Positions 8,750 through 58,085 of a stretch of 58,085 nucleotides of DNA are shown one piece after another. The notes below the pieces were generated by a model. The model did not search any database and had not been told where the DNA came from. It saw only the letters and a program-made list of their open reading frames with translations. This DNA comes from a virus. Position 1 is the stretch's first letter, and each line of letters starts with the position of its first letter. The translations under genes were made by a program, and so were the position numbers. The stretch covers positions 1-58,085 of IMG/VR virus record IMGVR_UViG_3300047199_000067. The stretch is one strand, 5' to 3'.

Positions 8750-8786
8750 TAAAGACTTAATAACAGTATCAATAATACTAATAGCG

Positions 8787-9242
8787 ATGGCACAGTATAA
8801 AGTCATACCAGAGGAACATAAAGCAAAACCAGTCGAGGAGTGGGGGACGGCGGAGCTTATCGAGTATTTTAGGGAGAAGCATAAAGAGGTAATGAGGGTA
8901 AAATCCCATAAGCCAGAAGGCTTATTGAAAATACATATCAACAGTAAGAACGTAAGGTTTTTATATGAACAGGGTAAAGAGGACTTCGGCAATATCCCAG
9001 CCAGTCAGTTGTATAAGGAGTATATGGATTGGCTGTTTGAATATAAGAGAGGGAAGGACGGCCTGATAAGATTGTGGAGTTTCAGCAATAAGGATATGAT
9101 GACGGATTTCCTGGACTATAAGAGTATGGCGGTTCAGGAGAAGGCGTTGGGAAGCCTTGACGACTTCAAGAAGGAAGAAGAAGAAAGAAAGCAGCGGGCT
9201 AAGGCGTATTTTGAAAGAGACAGAGGAGGAGAGGTCAAATGA
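8787..9242 (+). CDS. Hypothetical protein of the replication block
   Basis: 151 residues, Lys/Glu-rich with a helical C-terminus (FKKEEEERKQRAKAYFERD). The ATG lacks a clear ribosome binding site, in contrast to nearly all neighbours. Its place ahead of the loader/helicase/primase genes suggests an accessory replication role, but no domain is recognised. Confidence 0.6.
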   Translation: MAQYKVIPEEHKAKPVEEWGTAELIEYFREKHKEVMRVKSHKPEGLLKIHINSKNVRFLYEQGKEDFGNIPASQLYKEYMDWLFEYKRGKDGLIRLWSFSNKDMMTDFLDYKSMAVQEKALGSLDDFKKEEEERKQRAKAYFERDRGGEVK

Positions 9243-21105: not shown

Positions 21106-21663
21106 TTGGATATAGCATTAAAGGGTAAGTTTATAAACCATAATTTATGGGAGGCGATTAAAGCTCAAGGTTATTCAAACATCAATGAGTTTTGTCGGGT
21201 CGCTGGTATGAGCGCGTCATTGATAGGGCGATATATTAACCTGAAAAGTATACCTGTACAGAAAAATGTTTGTAAAAAGCTCGAAGAAAAGTTACATTGT
21301 CCGATTGATTATTTATTCCTTGACGATTTGTGCGCTTTTGTGAAGAAGAAACCTATAACAGAGGTATACGCTCATAAACGGGTCGATTTATTATCATTGG
21401 AAAATATCAAAGGTATAAGCTATGTTCCTGATTTGGATTTTGATAAGGCAGGAGAAATAGATAAAGTGCTGGATACTCTTACGAAAAGGGAAAGAAAAGT
21501 AGTAGAGTTGAGATACGGTCTTGATACGAACCCTAAAACATATCAGGAAGTAGGAGAAGAAATGTCCGTAACCCCTGAAAGAGCACGGCAAATAGAATTG
21601 CGTGCGTTACGGAAATTACGTCATCCTATACGGTCGAGAGAATTGGAAGTATATGTTAATTAA
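21106..21663 (+). CDS. HTH plus sigma70 region 4 regulator
   Basis: 185 residues, TTG start behind GAGGAGAGG. Residues about 12-75 resemble an XRE-like HTH ([20 protein letters not shown]). Residues about 120-175 are a clear sigma70 region 4: [15 protein letters not shown] then [19 protein letters not shown] and [10 protein letters not shown], the -35-recognition helix-turn-helix of RpoD. Regions 2 and 3 are absent, so it is not a complete sigma factor. It could redirect host RNA polymerase to phage promoters. Confidence 0.85.
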
Positions 21664-31697: not shown

Positions 31698-32084
31698 ATG
31701 TATCTGATAAAGAGCGAAGGCTCGTTTGATTCGGCTCATAAGCTCAAGGGCTATAAAGGCAAGTGTAGTCGGCTTCACGGCCACCAATGGCGATTTGAAG
31801 CCACTTTTGCTTTTTATGGTAAGCTTGATAAAATAGGGATTAGCATAGACTTTAAAGAGGTTAAGAATTGGCTAAAAGAGGTTGAGGAGAGATACGACCA
31901 TAAGCTATTGGTCTTTAAGCCAAACTCGACGGCAGAGGTTATAGTAAAAAAGATTTATGAGTTGTTGTCAGCGCATAACAAGGAAGGCGTTATAAGAGTC
32001 GCTAAGGTAGCCTTGTGGGAGACTCCGAATAATTGTATAGAGTATTATGAGGGGGTAGAGTCAGGAGGGGTGTTGAAATGTTAA
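31698..32084 (+). CDS. queD: 6-carboxytetrahydropterin synthase (QueD)
   Basis: 128 residues from ATG 31698, with TAGGAGG upstream; an earlier in-frame ATG would begin inside the leader. Zinc ligands His 14, His 27 and His 29 (SAH and LHGHQ), catalytic Cys 23, His 68 (DHKLL) and Glu 108 (WETPNN) match QueD of the 6-PTPS family. Converts the FolE product 7,8-dihydroneopterin triphosphate to 6-carboxy-tetrahydropterin, the QueE substrate. queE follows with a 7-base overlap and folE is two genes further on. Confidence 0.92.
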   Translation: MYLIKSEGSFDSAHKLKGYKGKCSRLHGHQWRFEATFAFYGKLDKIGISIDFKEVKNWLKEVEERYDHKLLVFKPNSTAEVIVKKIYELLSAHNKEGVIRVAKVALWETPNNCIEYYEGVESGGVLKC

Positions 32085-32686
32085 TTAATGAAATGTTTTT
32101 ATCCTTACAGGGCGAAGGATATGAGTCGGGCGAGTTGACCTATTTTATAAGAACGGCTCGTTGTAATCTCCAATGCTCGTGGTGCGATACTAAGTTCCAA
32201 GACCCTGCAACAGAGATGAGGGTGTTAGAGGTTATAGGCAAGGTAAGCAGGTGCGGGATAAAGAATATCTGTATCACAGGCGGAGAGCCGTTGCTTGAGG
32301 AGGACTTCTATCAATTGGAGGAGTGGCTATTTAAGGCAGGGTACAATACAGTCGTAGAGACGAACGGGAGCATATCAATAGAGAATATAAAATCTCAAGT
32401 TGCTATGGATATTAAGCCGCCGAGTAGCGGTATGGCGGAGCAGTTTTTGAGAGAAAATCTTGACCGTTTAAAGCCTAATGACCAGGTCAAGTTTATCATA
32501 CAAGACATCAAGGATTATGATTATGCAAAAGAAATGTTAAAGGATATAAAGCAGGGTAAGGTTATTTTTATGCCTGTGTGGGATGAGAAGTTCAAAGCAG
32601 CAAAGGATTTGGCAAGATGGATAATGGCGGACAGGCTATCGGTTCGATTGAGCCTTCAAATGCACAAGATACTGCATTTAAAGTAA
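32078..32686 (+). CDS. queE: 7-carboxy-7-deazaguanine synthase (QueE), radical SAM
   Basis: 202 residues. The radical SAM cluster is C29-x3-C33-x2-C36 (CNLQCSWC), preceded by MFLSLQGEG, the usual QueE opening; TGGEPLL and VETNGS also fit. Rearranges carboxy-tetrahydropterin to 7-carboxy-7-deazaguanine (CDG). Slightly shorter than E. coli QueE (223). Its end overlaps the phosphoribosyltransferase gene. QueC, which converts CDG to preQ0, is not seen in the window. Confidence 0.92.
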   Translation: MLINEMFLSLQGEGYESGELTYFIRTARCNLQCSWCDTKFQDPATEMRVLEVIGKVSRCGIKNICITGGEPLLEEDFYQLEEWLFKAGYNTVVETNGSISIENIKSQVAMDIKPPSSGMAEQFLRENLDRLKPNDQVKFIIQDIKDYDYAKEMLKDIKQGKVIFMPVWDEKFKAAKDLARWIMADRLSVRLSLQMHKILHLK

Positions 32687-33093
32687 GCTGGCAGGATTTT
32701 GCAGAGATTATGGACCAGCTCGTGCGGAGAGTGCCGAGATATAATACCTATGTCGGGATAGCCCTCGGTGGGCTATTCCCTGCGGCGTTTCTGGCTAAGT
32801 TTTATGACGCCGAGTTTATGTTTATGCAGTTTAAGCATTATAAAGACAGACAGAAATTAGAGAACGTTCGGTGGGGAGGTAATTACGGCAGACCGTACGG
32901 TAGCGTATTGATAGTAGACGACGTATCTGATACGGGAGAGACGCTGATAATGGCTCAAAAGCAAATGCCGTGGGCGGATACGTTAACATTATTCGTTAAG
33001 CCGCAGACAAAGTTTAAACCGACGTATTTTTGGTCTGAAACTGATAGATGGATAGAGTATCCTTGGGAGAGAAGCATTGAAAAGAGACCATAA
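32617..33093 (+). CDS. Phosphoribosyltransferase, purine (Gpt-like) type
   Basis: 158 residues. YVGIALGGLFPAAFLA is the PRTase first loop, and VLIVDDVSDTGETL is the PRPP-binding signature. The overall layout and DRWIEYPWE near the end resemble xanthine/guanine phosphoribosyltransferases. It overlaps QueE by 70 bases, so a shorter start is possible, but no other start is convincing. In this operon it could reclaim the guanine released when DpdA exchanges bases, or charge a deazaguanine; this is inference. Confidence 0.8.
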   Translation: MDNGGQAIGSIEPSNAQDTAFKVSWQDFAEIMDQLVRRVPRYNTYVGIALGGLFPAAFLAKFYDAEFMFMQFKHYKDRQKLENVRWGGNYGRPYGSVLIVDDVSDTGETLIMAQKQMPWADTLTLFVKPQTKFKPTYFWSETDRWIEYPWERSIEKRP

Positions 33094-33610
33094 TTTAATA
33101 AGGAAAGCTATAAGAGATTTTTTGATTGGCTTGGGAGAAGACCCTGAAAGGGATGGTATTAAGGAAACGCCTGATAGGGTAGCCCGTATGTGGATGGGGT
33201 TTAATGGTGAAGAAAAGCCATATCTCAAGACCTTTAAGTGCGAATACAGTGAAATGGTAGTAGTAAAGGAGTTGCCTTTTTACAGTTTTTGTGAACATCA
33301 TCTTGTCCCGTTCTTTGGAGTGGCTAAGATAGGATATTTACCTAAAAAGAAGGTGTTGGGGTTAAGCAAGGTGGCAAGGATTTTAGACTTTTATGCTCTA
33401 CGTCCGCAGATACAAGAACAGTTGACAATGCAGGTTGCGAAAGACCTGATGTCATTATTAAAGCCGAGCGGGGTGGGGGTTATCATAGAAGCGGAGCACC
33501 TTTGTATGTCAATGAGGGGAGTCAAGAAACCAGGTCATAGAACCGTAACAAGTTGCTTATTGGGTAAGTTCCAAGACGCAAAGGTCAGGGAGGAGTTCTT
33601 GAAGCTATGA
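33077..33610 (+). CDS. folE: GTP cyclohydrolase I (FolE)
   Basis: 177 residues from TTG 33077 (GGGAGAG upstream). FolE hallmarks: DGIKETPDRVARMW near 27-39, zinc ligands Cys 72 and His 75 (FCEHHLVPFFG) and Cys 143 (HLCMSMRGV). It opens GTP to 7,8-dihydroneopterin triphosphate, feeding QueD. Length is typical for the type I enzyme core. A phage copy implies demand for deazaguanine beyond the host supply. Confidence 0.93.
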   Translation: MKRDHNLIRKAIRDFLIGLGEDPERDGIKETPDRVARMWMGFNGEEKPYLKTFKCEYSEMVVVKELPFYSFCEHHLVPFFGVAKIGYLPKKKVLGLSKVARILDFYALRPQIQEQLTMQVAKDLMSLLKPSGVGVIIEAEHLCMSMRGVKKPGHRTVTSCLLGKFQDAKVREEFLKL

Positions 33611-50618: not shown

Positions 50619-50680
50619 TCGATATTTTGATTAAGAAGGAGTAGATAAGAGGTAGTTCCTTTCGACTGGACGAACTTAAT

Positions 50681-50716
50681 AAATAGGAGAGAAGAAATTC
50701 TCTCCTATTTATTTTT
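50681..50716 (+). terminator. Rho-independent terminator
   Basis: A perfect 13-bp stem (AAATAGGAGAGAA / TTCTCTCCTATTT, GAAA loop) followed by ATTTTT. Confidence 0.95.
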
Positions 50717-50718
50717 AG

Positions 50719-50747
50719 TTGACATTGATGTTCTGATGATGTATAAT
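50719..50747 (+). promoter_or_regulatory. Consensus promoter for leaderless HNH gene
   Basis: TTGACA, exactly 17 bp, TATAAT. The likely +1 is at 50754, the A of the HNH start codon. Confidence 0.9.
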
Positions 50748-50753
50748 GTCGAT

Positions 50754-51221
50754 ATGCCTAAGGGTTTTTATATTACAAAAGAGGGCTATATTAAGGTCAT
50801 TAAGCCGAAAGACCACCCGAATAAAGGACGTTATATCTTTTTGCATAGACTTGTTATGGAGAAAAAATTAGGAAGATATTTACGTTCAGAGGAAAGAATT
50901 TATCATAGAGACGGCAATAAGCAGAATAATGCAGAAGAGAATTTAGAGTTGTTTGCAAACCAAAGTGCGCACGCACAGAGAGGAGTTATAGAAGGCAGAA
51001 AATATAAATTGTTATGGGATAAAGAGTGGATGATAGAACAATATATAAATAGGCAAAAATCGTGTAGTGAAATCGCAAAACAAGTTGGATGTAGAGAAGG
51101 AACGGTTAGGAACGCTTTAATAATACAAGGATTTAAGCGGCGTAGATATACGTTGACAAAACTCGCACTTGATAGTAGACTAAAAGGGGTTATGGTTAAA
51201 AAATTAAGGTCGAGAAAATAG
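50754..51221 (+). CDS. HNH homing endonuclease with HTH
   Basis: 155 residues from ATG 50754; two ATGs at 50736/50739 lie upstream of or inside the -10 box and are ruled out. YIFLHRLVMEKKLGR then YHRDGNKQNNAEENLEL is an HNH core with Asp-Gly-Asn in the usual place. SCSEIAKQVGCREGTVRNA is a C-terminal HTH for DNA recognition. AT-rich, no ribosome binding site, inserted in a gap between structural genes: a mobile intergenic endonuclease. Confidence 0.85.
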   Translation: MPKGFYITKEGYIKVIKPKDHPNKGRYIFLHRLVMEKKLGRYLRSEERIYHRDGNKQNNAEENLELFANQSAHAQRGVIEGRKYKLLWDKEWMIEQYINRQKSCSEIAKQVGCREGTVRNALIIQGFKRRRYTLTKLALDSRLKGVMVKKLRSRK

Positions 51222-51237: not shown

Positions 51238-51798
51238 ATGAAAACACGTCAGAAAATTCCTGCCAGTATCAGTACAATTCTCAAAAAAAATAATTTAGGT
51301 ATCAAGCTCGATGTCGGTTGCGGCAGTAATAAGCAGCCTGGCTTTGTCGGTATGGATAAGAGGAAGGTCGAGGGAGTAGATATAGTCCACGACGCAGAAG
51401 TGTTCCCTTATCCATTACCAGATAATTGCTGTTCGCAAATATTGATGAGCCATTTAGTAGAGCATATCAAGCCCTGGTTGATGATAGATTTATTCAATGA
51501 ATTATGGAGGGTAATGCAACCAGAGGGGCAGTTATTAATATCTGCGCCCTACGGAGGGAGCTTCGGATTTTGGCAAGACCCGACCCATTGTAACGGATGT
51601 AACGAGGCAACGTGGACTTATTATGACCCCGATTATTTTTTATATAGGATATATCAGCCGAAGCCCTGGAGGATAGCAAGGAATGCCTGGTGGGAGACAG
51701 GCAATATGGAAGTCATAATGGAAAAAAGATTAACGGCAGTAATGTTAGAAAACCCGAAGGGCTTACCTACCAACGAGAATAAGGGGGTGGCAAAGTGA
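51238..51798 (+). CDS. SAM-dependent methyltransferase
   Basis: 186 residues. IKLDVGCGSNKQPGFVGMD is motif I/II of class I methyltransferases, and LMSHLVEHIKPW with MQPEGQLLISAPYGG are the later strands. This short UbiE/SPASM-like type is common in glycan clusters. Coupled to the following GT by a 4-base overlap. Confidence 0.82.
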   Translation: MKTRQKIPASISTILKKNNLGIKLDVGCGSNKQPGFVGMDKRKVEGVDIVHDAEVFPYPLPDNCCSQILMSHLVEHIKPWLMIDLFNELWRVMQPEGQLLISAPYGGSFGFWQDPTHCNGCNEATWTYYDPDYFLYRIYQPKPWRIARNAWWETGNMEVIMEKRLTAVMLENPKGLPTNENKGVAK

Positions 51799-52607
51799 AG
51801 AAGAAAACTATACAGTCAAATATGCAAGCCCCTAAGAGGGACGTATGGCAGGGATGGCAGAAGAAGGTTTGTATCGCAGTACCGACGACAGGGCAGGTTA
51901 GGGTGGAGTGGATGATGGCGAGGTTCAGCCAGGTCATACCAGTCAATTGGGCTAACGGAGATATATTCCAATATTTCGACCAATATTCGCCTATGGGATG
52001 GGCGGTAGCAGACGCAAGGAATTGTTGCGTACATTATTCCGTAACGGGCGGATTTGAGTGGACGCTGTTCATAGACCACGATGTGATATTACCGCCTGAT
52101 TGTTTCTTGAAGATGAACGAATATATGAGAAGCAAAAAGTACCCCGTGGTGTGCGGGCTTTATTATTGCAAAGGGTCGAACCCAGAGCCGTTGTTATTCA
52201 GAGGCAGAGGAACGTCGTATTACGATAAGTGGAAAAGGGGAGACAAGGTTTGGGTAGACGGAATCCCGATGGGGTGTACGTTGATACATAATAGCGTGAT
52301 GAAAGCCATATATGACGTATCAGAGCAATATACTTTAAAAACCCTGGGTGGTCCGCAGGTCAGCAGGAGAGTATTCGAGACTCCAAGAAAGGTATGGTAT
52401 GACCCCGAAGCAGGGACGTACAATACACAGATAGGGACAGAGGATTTATTCTGGTGCGACAGGGTGATGAAAGAAAAGATATTCGAGAAGTCGGGTTGGA
52501 AGAAGTTTCAAAAGATGCAGTATCCGTTTCTTTTAGATACTTCAATATTCTGCCAGCATATTGACGAGAGAGGTTTTATGTATCCTGCCAATGTAGGCAT
52601 ACGATAA
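51795..52607 (+). CDS. GT-A glycosyltransferase-like protein
   Basis: 270 residues, GTG start overlapping the previous stop. VCIAVPTTGQVRVEWMM at the start, WTLFIDHDVILPPD (DxD-type metal site) and GIPMGCTLIHNSVMKAI suit GT2-like enzymes found in phages. Third sugar transferase in this section. Confidence 0.75.
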   Translation: MKKKTIQSNMQAPKRDVWQGWQKKVCIAVPTTGQVRVEWMMARFSQVIPVNWANGDIFQYFDQYSPMGWAVADARNCCVHYSVTGGFEWTLFIDHDVILPPDCFLKMNEYMRSKKYPVVCGLYYCKGSNPEPLLFRGRGTSYYDKWKRGDKVWVDGIPMGCTLIHNSVMKAIYDVSEQYTLKTLGGPQVSRRVFETPRKVWYDPEAGTYNTQIGTEDLFWCDRVMKEKIFEKSGWKKFQKMQYPFLLDTSIFCQHIDERGFMYPANVGIR

Positions 52608-52618
52608 GGAGGATAGGT

Positions 52619-52825
52619 ATGGATGGAGATTTAGGCATAGACGTCAATGAGTCGGTAAGGGCTCAAGAAGCCTTCGGCGATTTAGCGCAGAAGCTCAAAG
52701 CAAAAGGCATAGGCGGTACTCTGCACCTGGTCAATGAGGAAGATAAAATAAAGGTCATAGACTCGGCTTGGCAGTTAAGCAAGACTATGGGTATGCCAGT
52801 AATAATTGTCGTGAGAGCAAGATAA
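52619..52825 (+). CDS. Small hypothetical protein
   Basis: 68 residues behind AAGGAGGATAG. Helix (ESVRAQEAFGDLAQKLKAKG) plus strand (MPVIIVVRAR). Unknown. Its stop lies three bases before the ncRNA promoter. Confidence 0.5.
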   Translation: MDGDLGIDVNESVRAQEAFGDLAQKLKAKGIGGTLHLVNEEDKIKVIDSAWQLSKTMGMPVIIVVRAR

Positions 52826-52828
52826 GGG

Positions 52829-52857
52829 TTGACAAAAAATAGAAGATATGATATGTT
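52829..52857 (+). promoter_or_regulatory. Promoter of the non-coding RNA
   Basis: TTGACA, 17-bp spacer, TATGTT. The predicted +1 near 52863 coincides with the first base pairs of the P1 helix of the downstream RNA. Confidence 0.8.
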
Positions 52858-52862
52858 TATTA

Positions 52863-53072
52863 TGGAGTGAGGAAAGGCTAAGTCAGGCGAAGGGTGCAAA
52901 CCCGATGTAACCGAAGCCACGCCGCCCGCTCCATCGATAGGTCGTCTAATGACAGCAGAAAGGCGACGATTGTATCCTATATAAGGTGCAATTAAGAAGC
53001 CCTGGTTAGGATAATTGGCGACTAATTCGTCTGTATGGAGGGTATTATGACAGAACGAGTTAGTCTTTTTTT
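52863..53072 (+). ncRNA. Structured non-coding RNA, about 210 nt, unknown class
   Basis: Between promoter and a terminator no ORF is credible, while paired segments are dense. P1: ATGGAGTG (52862) with CGCTCCAT (52927). Inside it GGCT/AGCC (52876/52915) and GGCG/CGCC (52886/52920) would cross, giving a pseudoknot, with a GGG/CCC hairpin at 52892. Next a two-part stem: ATAGG/CCTAT (52937/52976) and TCGTC/GACGA (52942/52965). Then CAATTA/TAATTG (52989/53012). Last, GACTAATTCGT/ACGAGTTAGTC (53020/53055) followed by seven T is an intrinsic terminator. No known family is recognised. Confidence 0.72.
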
Positions 53073-53077
53073 GTTTT

Positions 53078-53156
53078 GCGACGCCGTAAAAAAGAGTAGG
53101 TTGGGTGTCCCCTGTCCTGCTTTTCGCCCTTAAACAAGGCGACGGCGTTCTTTTTA
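53078..53156 (+). ncRNA. Second folded element with terminator
   Basis: GACGCCGT (53080) pairs with ACGGCGTT (53142), enclosing an AAAAG..AGG/CCT..CTTTT hairpin and a CGCC/GGCG hairpin: a three-way junction followed by TTTTTATTT. It could be a second RNA, the 3' part of the first, or a leader of the next gene. Confidence 0.5.
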
Positions 53157-53171: not shown

Positions 53172-53351
53172 ATGTATAGTGAGTACCCCGACGACATAAT
53201 CAGACCCGTAGCATTTGTGATAAGCCAAGAGAAAGACAGGCAAGGAATAAGACATACGCCAGACGGGGATTGGCAGGACGCCATAAAGAGATTAGAAACG
53301 CAAGAGAGCGAAAGAATGAATATAATTCACAGAGGGGAAGTTGGCTATTAA
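53172..53351 (+). CDS. Small hypothetical protein
   Basis: 59 residues, MYSEYPDDIIRPVAFVISQE, behind TAGGAGGGTG. It lies between the RNA region and the fibre gene. No domain. Confidence 0.5.
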   Translation: MYSEYPDDIIRPVAFVISQEKDRQGIRHTPDGDWQDAIKRLETQESERMNIIHRGEVGY

Positions 53352-56230: not shown

Positions 56231-58085
56231 ATGGCGAAATATTGGGTCATAGATGATTTAGGCAACCAGGTCGTTGATGACCTGGGTAATTTGGTTTGGG
56301 CTGGAGACGGTCCGCCAGAGTGGGAGGTCATTACCTATGATGAATCATCTTTAACAGAGGTAGCCACCAATTATCTTGACGTCTTAAATGTAGACACCTA
56401 TGAGCCTGAATATATCGTAATGACCGAGCATACCGACGTCTTGGATTTGGTAGTAGAGGTCGGGGTGCTTGCTGAATATAATTATGTAGTAGAGGATGTC
56501 GTCCCATCGTTGGACGTTCTGTTCGTACCTGTACTCTATGATGAAATCATAGAACAGGAAACAGTTTCAATATACCTCGATGTTCTTGTACCTTACCTAT
56601 ATGAAGTCCTGTCTATTCAGGAAGATACCGTTCTTGATGTCCTGATAGAAATATCTCAATATGACGAAGTAACCATCGAGGAAAGTCTATCAATAGATAA
56701 TCTGATAGATATGAGCTTATATGAGGAGGTTTCTGTAAGCGAGTATCTTGAAAACTATCTTGATGTGCTTGTCCCAGAGGTCTATGAAGGGGTAAGTGTT
56801 CTTGAGGATATTCAGACCTATATAGATGAGCTGTTTACTGATGTTTATGATGTTATCGTAACGACAGAAAATCTGGCTCAATATATTGATGAGTTGTTCG
56901 ATTTGTCTTATGACGAAGTCATAGTCCAGGAAGATATAGCTCTTTATATAAATGAACTGTTTGCGGAGAGGTATGAGGAAATATCTACGCAGGAGGATGT
57001 TCAGACCTATATTGGTATAGATATTGACATCTATGATGAGGTGAGTATTCAAGAGGATATTTATGCTTCTATTGATGTCTTGAATATTGAACTCTATGAC
57101 GAAATCCTCATTACTGAATCTGTCAGTATCCTTGACATAGTAATCGAAGTAGGCATAGTCGAGGAGACGGTAAGTGTAACGGATTATCAAGAGATACTTA
57201 TTACAGAACTGTTTATAGAGTCCTATGATGAGGTATCTATCACAGAGGATAGTGTTAATTCCCTGGACGCTTTATACCAGACGGCTTATGACGAGGTTAT
57301 TGTTGTAGAGTATATCGAGGTCGTGGACTTAGTCATAGAGACAGAGGTCTATGACGGGGTAGCAGTATCAGAATCTCTTGTTGTTCTCTTGCCATTACTC
57401 AATATATCTATATATGATGACATATCCGTTGAAGAATACTCCGAGTGTTATCTGCCAGGTCTTCCTTTAGAGATTGACGAGGCTATATCCGTTCAAGAAA
57501 ATGCCCAGCAATATCTTGACGCTTTATATTCTGATATTTATGATGAAGTCTTAATCACAGAGCATATTGACGTTCTTGATGAAGTGGTAGAGGTTGGGAT
57601 AGTAGAGGACACGGTATCGGTATCAGAGCAGAATAGTCTTTACCTGAACGAGTTATACGCAGAGCTTTATGATGAGATACAAGCGGTTGAAGCGGTATCT
57701 TTATATCTAAACGTATTATATACAGAGGTATACGATGAAGTAACCATAGCTGAATATACGGAGTTGCTCATAGGCGTAGAGTTATCCGTATATGATGAGA
57801 GCATTGTTACAGAATATTCTGTTCAATACTTGACAGAACTTTTCGTTTCTATATTCAGCGAGGTATCTATTCTCGAACAGGCAGACATAGAAGCTCTGAT
57901 TGGCATAGACATTTATGACCAAGTAGGTATTGAGGAGGATATTGCTGTCTATCTCGGTGTCCTCAACGCTGATGTTTACGAGATAATCGCTGTTTCAGAG
58001 TCAGTTAGCGTGCTTGATATAGTGGTCGAGGTAGGTATAGTATTCGATTTAATCAACACCACAGACGCCGTAGAAGGCATTAGTC
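56231..58085 (+). CDS. Highly acidic repeat protein, 3' end outside window
   Basis: Open for at least 618 codons from ATG 56231 to the window edge. It begins MAKYWVIDDLGNQVVDDLGN, then consists of degenerate ~23-28 residue repeats built on Y-D/E-E-V-[ST]-[IV]-x-E-[DES] and YLDVL. Translated by eye it holds one Lys (residue 3) and one Arg in 618 residues, with Asp and Glu throughout, so it is extremely acidic. Likely a long beta-repeat virion or fibre protein, possibly calcium-binding; this is inference. Confidence 0.8.
   Translation, partial: MAKYWVIDDLGNQVVDDLGNLVWAGDGPPEWEVITYDESSLTEVATNYLDVLNVDTYEPEYIVMTEHTDVLDLVVEVGVLAEYNYVVEDVVPSLDVLFVPVLYDEIIEQETVSIYLDVLVPYLYEVLSIQEDTVLDVLIEISQYDEVTIEESLSIDNLIDMSLYEEVSVSEYLENYLDVLVPEVYEGVSVLEDIQTYIDELFTDVYDVIVTTENLAQYIDELFDLSYDEVIVQEDIALYINELFAERYEEISTQEDVQTYIGIDIDIYDEVSIQEDIYASIDVLNIELYDEILITESVSILDIVIEVGIVEETVSVTDYQEILITELFIESYDEVSITEDSVNSLDALYQTAYDEVIVVEYIEVVDLVIETEVYDGVAVSESLVVLLPLLNISIYDDISVEEYSECYLPGLPLEIDEAISVQENAQQYLDALYSDIYDEVLITEHIDVLDEVVEVGIVEDTVSVSEQNSLYLNELYAELYDEIQAVEAVSLYLNVLYTEVYDEVTIAEYTELLIGVELSVYDESIVTEYSVQYLTELFVSIFSEVSILEQADIEALIGIDIYDQVGIEEDIAVYLGVLNADVYEIIAVSESVSVLDIVVEVGIVFDLINTTDAVEGIS

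Follow-up and report, generated by a model that had tools for sequence, protein, structure and literature searches.

A compact RNA core of ~54 nt, whose fold is conserved as RNA structure in eight phage lineages, lies in an RNA-only gene that an uncultured tailed phage carries between two of its structural genes. The source contig is viral and 58,085 bases long (IMGVR_UViG_3300047199_000067; the whole stretch analysed is called the window here), and genes for portal, capsid, helicase, and DNA polymerase were found in it. An earlier note on this DNA had proposed a structured RNA that runs from promoter to terminator and belongs to no known class. This central claim is supported by the absence of an Rfam match, by covariation, and by the flanking signals. 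Judged from sequence comparison, the core is a new RNA family within an already known kind, the phage-encoded structured RNA. The predicted transcript is ~209 nt in the window and ~110 nt without the window's extra 5' hairpin. Its conserved part comprises positions 52951–53006, probably 52941–53022 with an outer helix, and excludes the 5' domain. Table 1 lists the features of the locus.

Table 1 Features of the RNA gene and its surroundings in the window
Feature	Position	Strand	Remarks
Glycosyltransferase-2-like gene	51795–52607	+	Conserved upstream neighbour
68-aa protein gene	52619–52825	+	Directly upstream of RNA; conserved
Promoter	52829–52857	+	-35 TTGACA 52829–52834, 17-nt spacer, extended -10 TATGTT 52852–52857
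Window-specific 5' hairpin domain GGAGUG...CGCUCC	52864–52932	+	Between start site and core; single-sequence fold
Possible outer helix P0, 5' strand GUCGUCUAAU	52941–52950	+	Partner 53014–53022
Conserved core RNA	52951–53006	+	Covariance model R1, covariation
Possible outer helix P0, 3' strand AUUGGCGAC	53014–53022	+	Last three bases also form base of terminator stem
Intrinsic terminator	53020–53072	+	Hairpin 53020–53065 plus T7 53066–53072
Putative 28-codon micro-ORF MTERVSLFLFCDAVKKSRLGVPCPAFRP	53047–53133	+	GGAGGG 53037–53042 in terminator loop; by reading
Second terminator-like hairpin GACGCCGT...ACGGCGTT, then T5	53080–53155	+	Upstream of next gene; by reading
59-aa ORF	53172–53351	+	Downstream of RNA

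The core, which is common to eight distinct loci among IMG/VR relatives of the neighbouring genes, forms one long irregular hairpin in which an A-rich 5' bulge separates P1 from a 3-bp P2, and a purine internal loop separates P2 from P3. In the window, CAG (52953–52955) pairs with CUG (53002–53004) to form P1, which is followed by a 6-nt 5' bulge, and GGC (52962–52964) pairs with GCC (52999–53001) to form P2. P3 joins 52968–52978 to 52984–52993, with a bulged nucleotide at 52975 and an apical UAUA. Conserved letters fall mostly in the bulges and loops; the helices vary but stay paired, with P2 occurring as GGC/GCC, GGU/ACC, GAC/GUC, and GGG/CCC across the phages.

The earlier note had named a lack of covariation as one refutation of its proposal, and covariation was found. 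When the eight cores are aligned on the given structure, standard pairs fill 89% of cells, and 13 of the 16 pairs show changes on both sides with pairing kept, which none of 500 shuffles reached. The covariation score was 0.690; shuffles gave 0.243, and slid partners no more than 0.158. This analysis covers eight sequences only, and the shuffles ignore their kinship; the slid-partner control retains kinship and did not reproduce the signal. RNAalifold alone returned nearly the same fold, with a different P1 and both-sided changes in 12 of 16 pairs. The given structure contains 17 G-U cells against 2 A-C cells in the RNAalifold alignment, which places the RNA on the plus strand, where the promoter-like sites and U-tracts also lie. 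Covariance model R1 gives 61.3 bits at the window and 43–69 bits in the seven other lineages; since the model was built from those eight sequences, these scores are not independent evidence, as the covariation is.

A search of the window with Rfam 15 produced 0 matches at the gathering threshold, in line with the assertion that the RNA resembles no known family. At E <= 10, the window stretch gave two unrelated chance matches and the homologue in L038 gave none. ARAGORN detected no tRNA or tmRNA in the window, and the group I intron model RF00028 did not match at the core RNA. Elsewhere in L038 (7147–7338), RF00028 scores 55 bits at a group I catalytic intron near the end of the gene for a conserved 171-aa protein, and the match of that protein stops early. 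A non-exhaustive search of the literature found no title or abstract that describes the core motif.

Related loci were collected through the neighbouring genes. The glycosyltransferase-like neighbour retrieved eight related contigs, and the RNA pattern and the 68-aa and 171-aa neighbours added more; the 68-aa protein retrieved nothing as a single query and found homologues as an alignment query. Removal of duplicates left the window, L002 (=L003, L029, L030), L016 (=L027, L038), L024 (=L032), L007 (=L039), L005 (=L037), L006 (=L043; near-identical to L008/L040), and L009 (=L042). According to the covariance model, the core is single-copy in each phage record, and 12 related records, several of them fragments, contain no match. 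One relative without the core, L044, encodes a diverged version of the small protein, and the next gene follows immediately. Another, L054, carries a different structured-looking RNA at the equivalent position (GGTTCGCTA...TAGCGAATC, 8770–8900, after TATAAT), for which Rfam gives no match above chance.

A first scan of viral contigs with an RNA pattern yielded one genuine new locus, L016; its eight other matches lie in unrelated sequence, as judged by reading. A further scan of these contigs produced L060, a chance match within a coding gene, and another returned known loci only. Among genome_contigs, which cover bacterial and archaeal species, the RNA pattern had 85 matches, 80 of which were scored and none of which exceeded 19.2 bits; this pattern fixes P2 as GGC/GCC and would therefore miss other P2 variants. 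The 171-aa neighbour had no match in genome_contigs, and nucleotide similarity had none in phage or plasmid records. In the collections searched, the core is confined to one phage clade.

The signals that flank the core are those of a stand-alone small RNA gene at the sequence level, with promoters that are weak in some lineages. The consensus promoter proposed in the earlier note is confirmed by 10 of 12 matches in TTGACA-17-TATGTT, with TG ahead of the -10 element and a predicted start at ~52864. Promoter-grade matches number 39 in the region and 27 in shuffles, and a single match is weak evidence by itself; promoter-like sites recur 5' of the core in relatives at comparable positions. The -10 element precedes the core by 21–25 nt in four loci and by 93 nt in the window. 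The latter value is close to 23 nt plus the 69-nt extra 5' domain. The distance is 21–42 nt in the lineages other than the window, except for L006 and L009 (84 nt), in which the best promoter falls within the upstream small-protein gene. Promoters are weak or distant in these two lineages as well as in L005 and L007. The 7-T terminator also stands: its hairpin has a predicted energy of -18 kcal/mol, and a U-tract terminator lies 3' of the core in 8/8 loci at a distance of 33–124 nt. The full terminator stem of L032 is visible in a whole-transcript fold.

The extent of the structured region differs from the earlier description. Dense pairing holds for a 218-nt stretch of the window (-69.6 kcal/mol, z = -3.0), which was equalled by 0 of 200 shuffles. 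The weight that the note had placed on a 5' "P1 domain" is not supported, as the seven other lineages lack this domain; in the window it folds at -23.6 kcal/mol (z -1.8). The possibility that it repeats the core was rejected when the covariance model, with filters off, gave no score. Extra domains sit outside the core, at the 5' side in the window and at the 3' side in L016, L006, and L009. Single-sequence folds of six other loci contain an outer helix comparable to the P0 that the window can form, and a comparison of cognate with swapped flanks between loci gave p values of 0.03–0.12, which makes P0 no more than suggestive. The possible pseudoknot of the note is not supported. We examined a version that joins the P3 loop to the 3' flank, and the UAUCCUA/UAGGAUA match of the window is not conserved in other loci. 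Likenesses to a kink-turn and an anticodon loop, seen by eye, were set aside, since the letters essential to them show no conservation.

The core lies directly 3' of the 68-aa protein gene in 7/8 lineages; short reading frames intervene in L024. The 68-aa protein shares 34–59% identity with its counterparts from the seven other lineages that carry the RNA and has no significant match in PHROGs, Pfam, or PDB. From one lineage to another, the first gene downstream of the RNA is in most cases unrelated. L005 and L007 have the same one, and a weak match links nearby downstream genes of L032 and L043. The large repetitive proteins encoded farther downstream of the RNA are related. A long repetitive ORF at 56465–58084, open at the end of the window, is related to those of L003, L027, and L043. 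The next ATG follows the end of the core by 77–78 nt in L037 and L039, and inspection of the tightest loci disclosed no obvious promoter between terminator and next gene. With the next gene so close behind the terminator, polymerase read-through must occur in several loci.

The earlier note had stated that the RNA has no ORF. No long ORF crosses it, but GGAGGG-tatt-ATG at 53037–53049 opens a 28-codon ORF that starts within the terminator and ends at 53133. An RBS-ATG in or next to the 3' hairpin is also found in L006/L043, L009/L042, and L016/L027; in L043 (8788–8860) and L042 (8719–8790), AGGAG-ATG in or beside the hairpin begins similar micro-ORFs, MQRLSVY... and MQRLPVY.... The putative micro-ORF could be translated only from read-through RNA.

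Other genes of the window deserve mention. An HNH endonuclease gene (50619–51221) lies between the 171-aa gene and a methyltransferase gene, and has a perfect promoter (12/12 matches, at 50719) with a terminator just ahead of the gene. QueE-like radical SAM and GTP cyclohydrolase genes (32078–33610) suggest 7-deazaguanine synthesis by the phage. The product of 21106–21663 combines an N-terminal helix-turn-helix-like part with a C terminus like sigma-factor region 4 and is a possible phage transcription factor. A serine transposase gene within the phage (3213–3815) matches a PHROG transposase and is presumably IS607-like.

What might the RNA do? Our preference, with about even confidence, is for a discrete late phage RNA that probably binds a protein, ahead of a leader that works in cis by antitermination or attenuation, because lineages that keep the small-protein gene upstream mostly have unrelated first genes downstream. 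This turnover downstream suggests that the function lies in the RNA itself. Moreover, the combination of conserved loops with freely varying helices suggests a protein ligand or a tertiary fold, and not an antisense RNA built around a conserved seed. We envision a dedicated phage RNA gene whose own host-type promoter and U-tract terminator would give rise to an RNA of ~110 nt (~209 nt in the window), with most transcripts presumably ending at the terminator. The product would act in trans as a discrete molecule and might bind a phage or host protein, purely conjectural at this stage, late in infection. Several observations fit this proposal less well. Read-through into close next genes is explained at least equally by a cis-acting leader, promoters are weak or distant in the four lineages named above, the 3' strand of the core falls within the terminator stem in L032/L024, and in the window the conserved fold (-19.4 kcal/mol) is less stable than an alternative, which has the lowest energy (-22.4 kcal/mol).

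It is possible, if somewhat less probable, that the core belongs to a cis-acting 5' leader that follows a late promoter and sets the passage of polymerase through the terminator into distal tail or host-interaction genes. Such a leader might bind polymerase or an antitermination factor, like HK022 put and lambda nut, or might compete with the terminator. The order of promoter, core, terminator, and gene would suit this role, as would the position of the core near the predicted start and the absence of a visible promoter between terminator and gene. So would the L032/L024 overlap and the 3 nt that the possible outer helix of the window shares with the base of its terminator stem. HK022 put, a ~70-nt two-stem bulged RNA with putL just 3' of PL (PMC9378689), lends further plausibility. 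On the other hand, the RNA is conserved among lineages in which the gene that comes first downstream is mostly an unrelated one, the distance from core to U-tract varies widely, and core and terminator are both able to form in most loci. By our reading, relatives without the RNA also have a terminator just 5' of the tail gene; this feature is thus not tied to the RNA. A bolder proposal, which we regard as doubtful, is that these uncultured phages encode a new class of RNA, which would bind either host RNA polymerase or a phage protein and thereby allow late transcription to continue through terminators into host-interaction genes that can be swapped. Such an RNA-only late antiterminator would be comparable to HK022 put in mode and unrelated to it in fold.

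The core could instead serve the late mRNA from upstream as its 3'-end module, in which a stabiliser or processing site is joined to the terminator and the promoter is incidental. The same small-protein gene is upstream in all lineages and adjoins the core in all except L024, and the location of the best promoter of L006/L009 inside that gene would be expected. We nevertheless consider this improbable: several lineages have promoter-like sites about equally far from the core, and a plain protective hairpin needs no conserved loop letters. A compact fold with conserved loop letters ahead of a terminator and gene start, together with two window folds of similar energy, is compatible with a metabolite-sensing riboswitch for the next gene. 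This is very improbable, since no Rfam riboswitch matched, the downstream genes differ among lineages, and no conserved competition between core and terminator was found. Chance folding of the intergenic region into no functional RNA would accord with modest single-sequence folding scores (z -1 to -3) and is scarcely credible in view of the covariation in eight lineages, the shuffles, and the failure of slid pairings.

The family, supported by covariation, joins a short list of structured RNAs of tailed phages, and its core is a defined compact unit that can be used for synthesis, probing, and as bait. Should it act on transcription, the RNA would be a rare example of phage late genes under RNA-only control; should it act in trans, it would point to an unrecognised RNA-protein step of infection.

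Among known systems, the late leader (6S, pR'-tR') RNA of lambda has a similar layout, in which a promoter, a short RNA, and a terminator precede the late genes. The window locus has this same promoter-RNA-terminator order. Lambda Q works through a DNA site; unlike that site, the RNA described here has undergone compensatory changes that show selection on RNA structure. Like putL and putR of HK022, the core is an irregular RNA hairpin that a phage encodes and that yields no protein, and putL also lies near a promoter and before terminators. Put is a ~70-nt RNA with two stems and multiple bulges, and putL is located just downstream of PL (PMC9378689). Put occurs twice, in early operons, whereas the core is one compound hairpin found once per record among late genes; two stem-loops just after an early promoter were not found here. 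Put binds the beta' zinc-binding domain of RNA polymerase and suppresses termination, and the mode of action of the core may resemble this.

GOLLD and ROOL are linked to phages or prophages. These RNAs are several hundred nt long, in contrast to ~110–210 nt for the present family, which lacks an Rfam match; the two groups share only a broad description. In one report, GOLLD and ROOL are described as structured noncoding RNAs discovered by comparative genomics (PMC12286853). With phage-encoded small RNAs in general, the family shares the layout of a small promoter-to-terminator transcript, which is predicted here. It differs from them in its conserved three-helix fold and loop consensus, with no conserved single-stranded seed seen.
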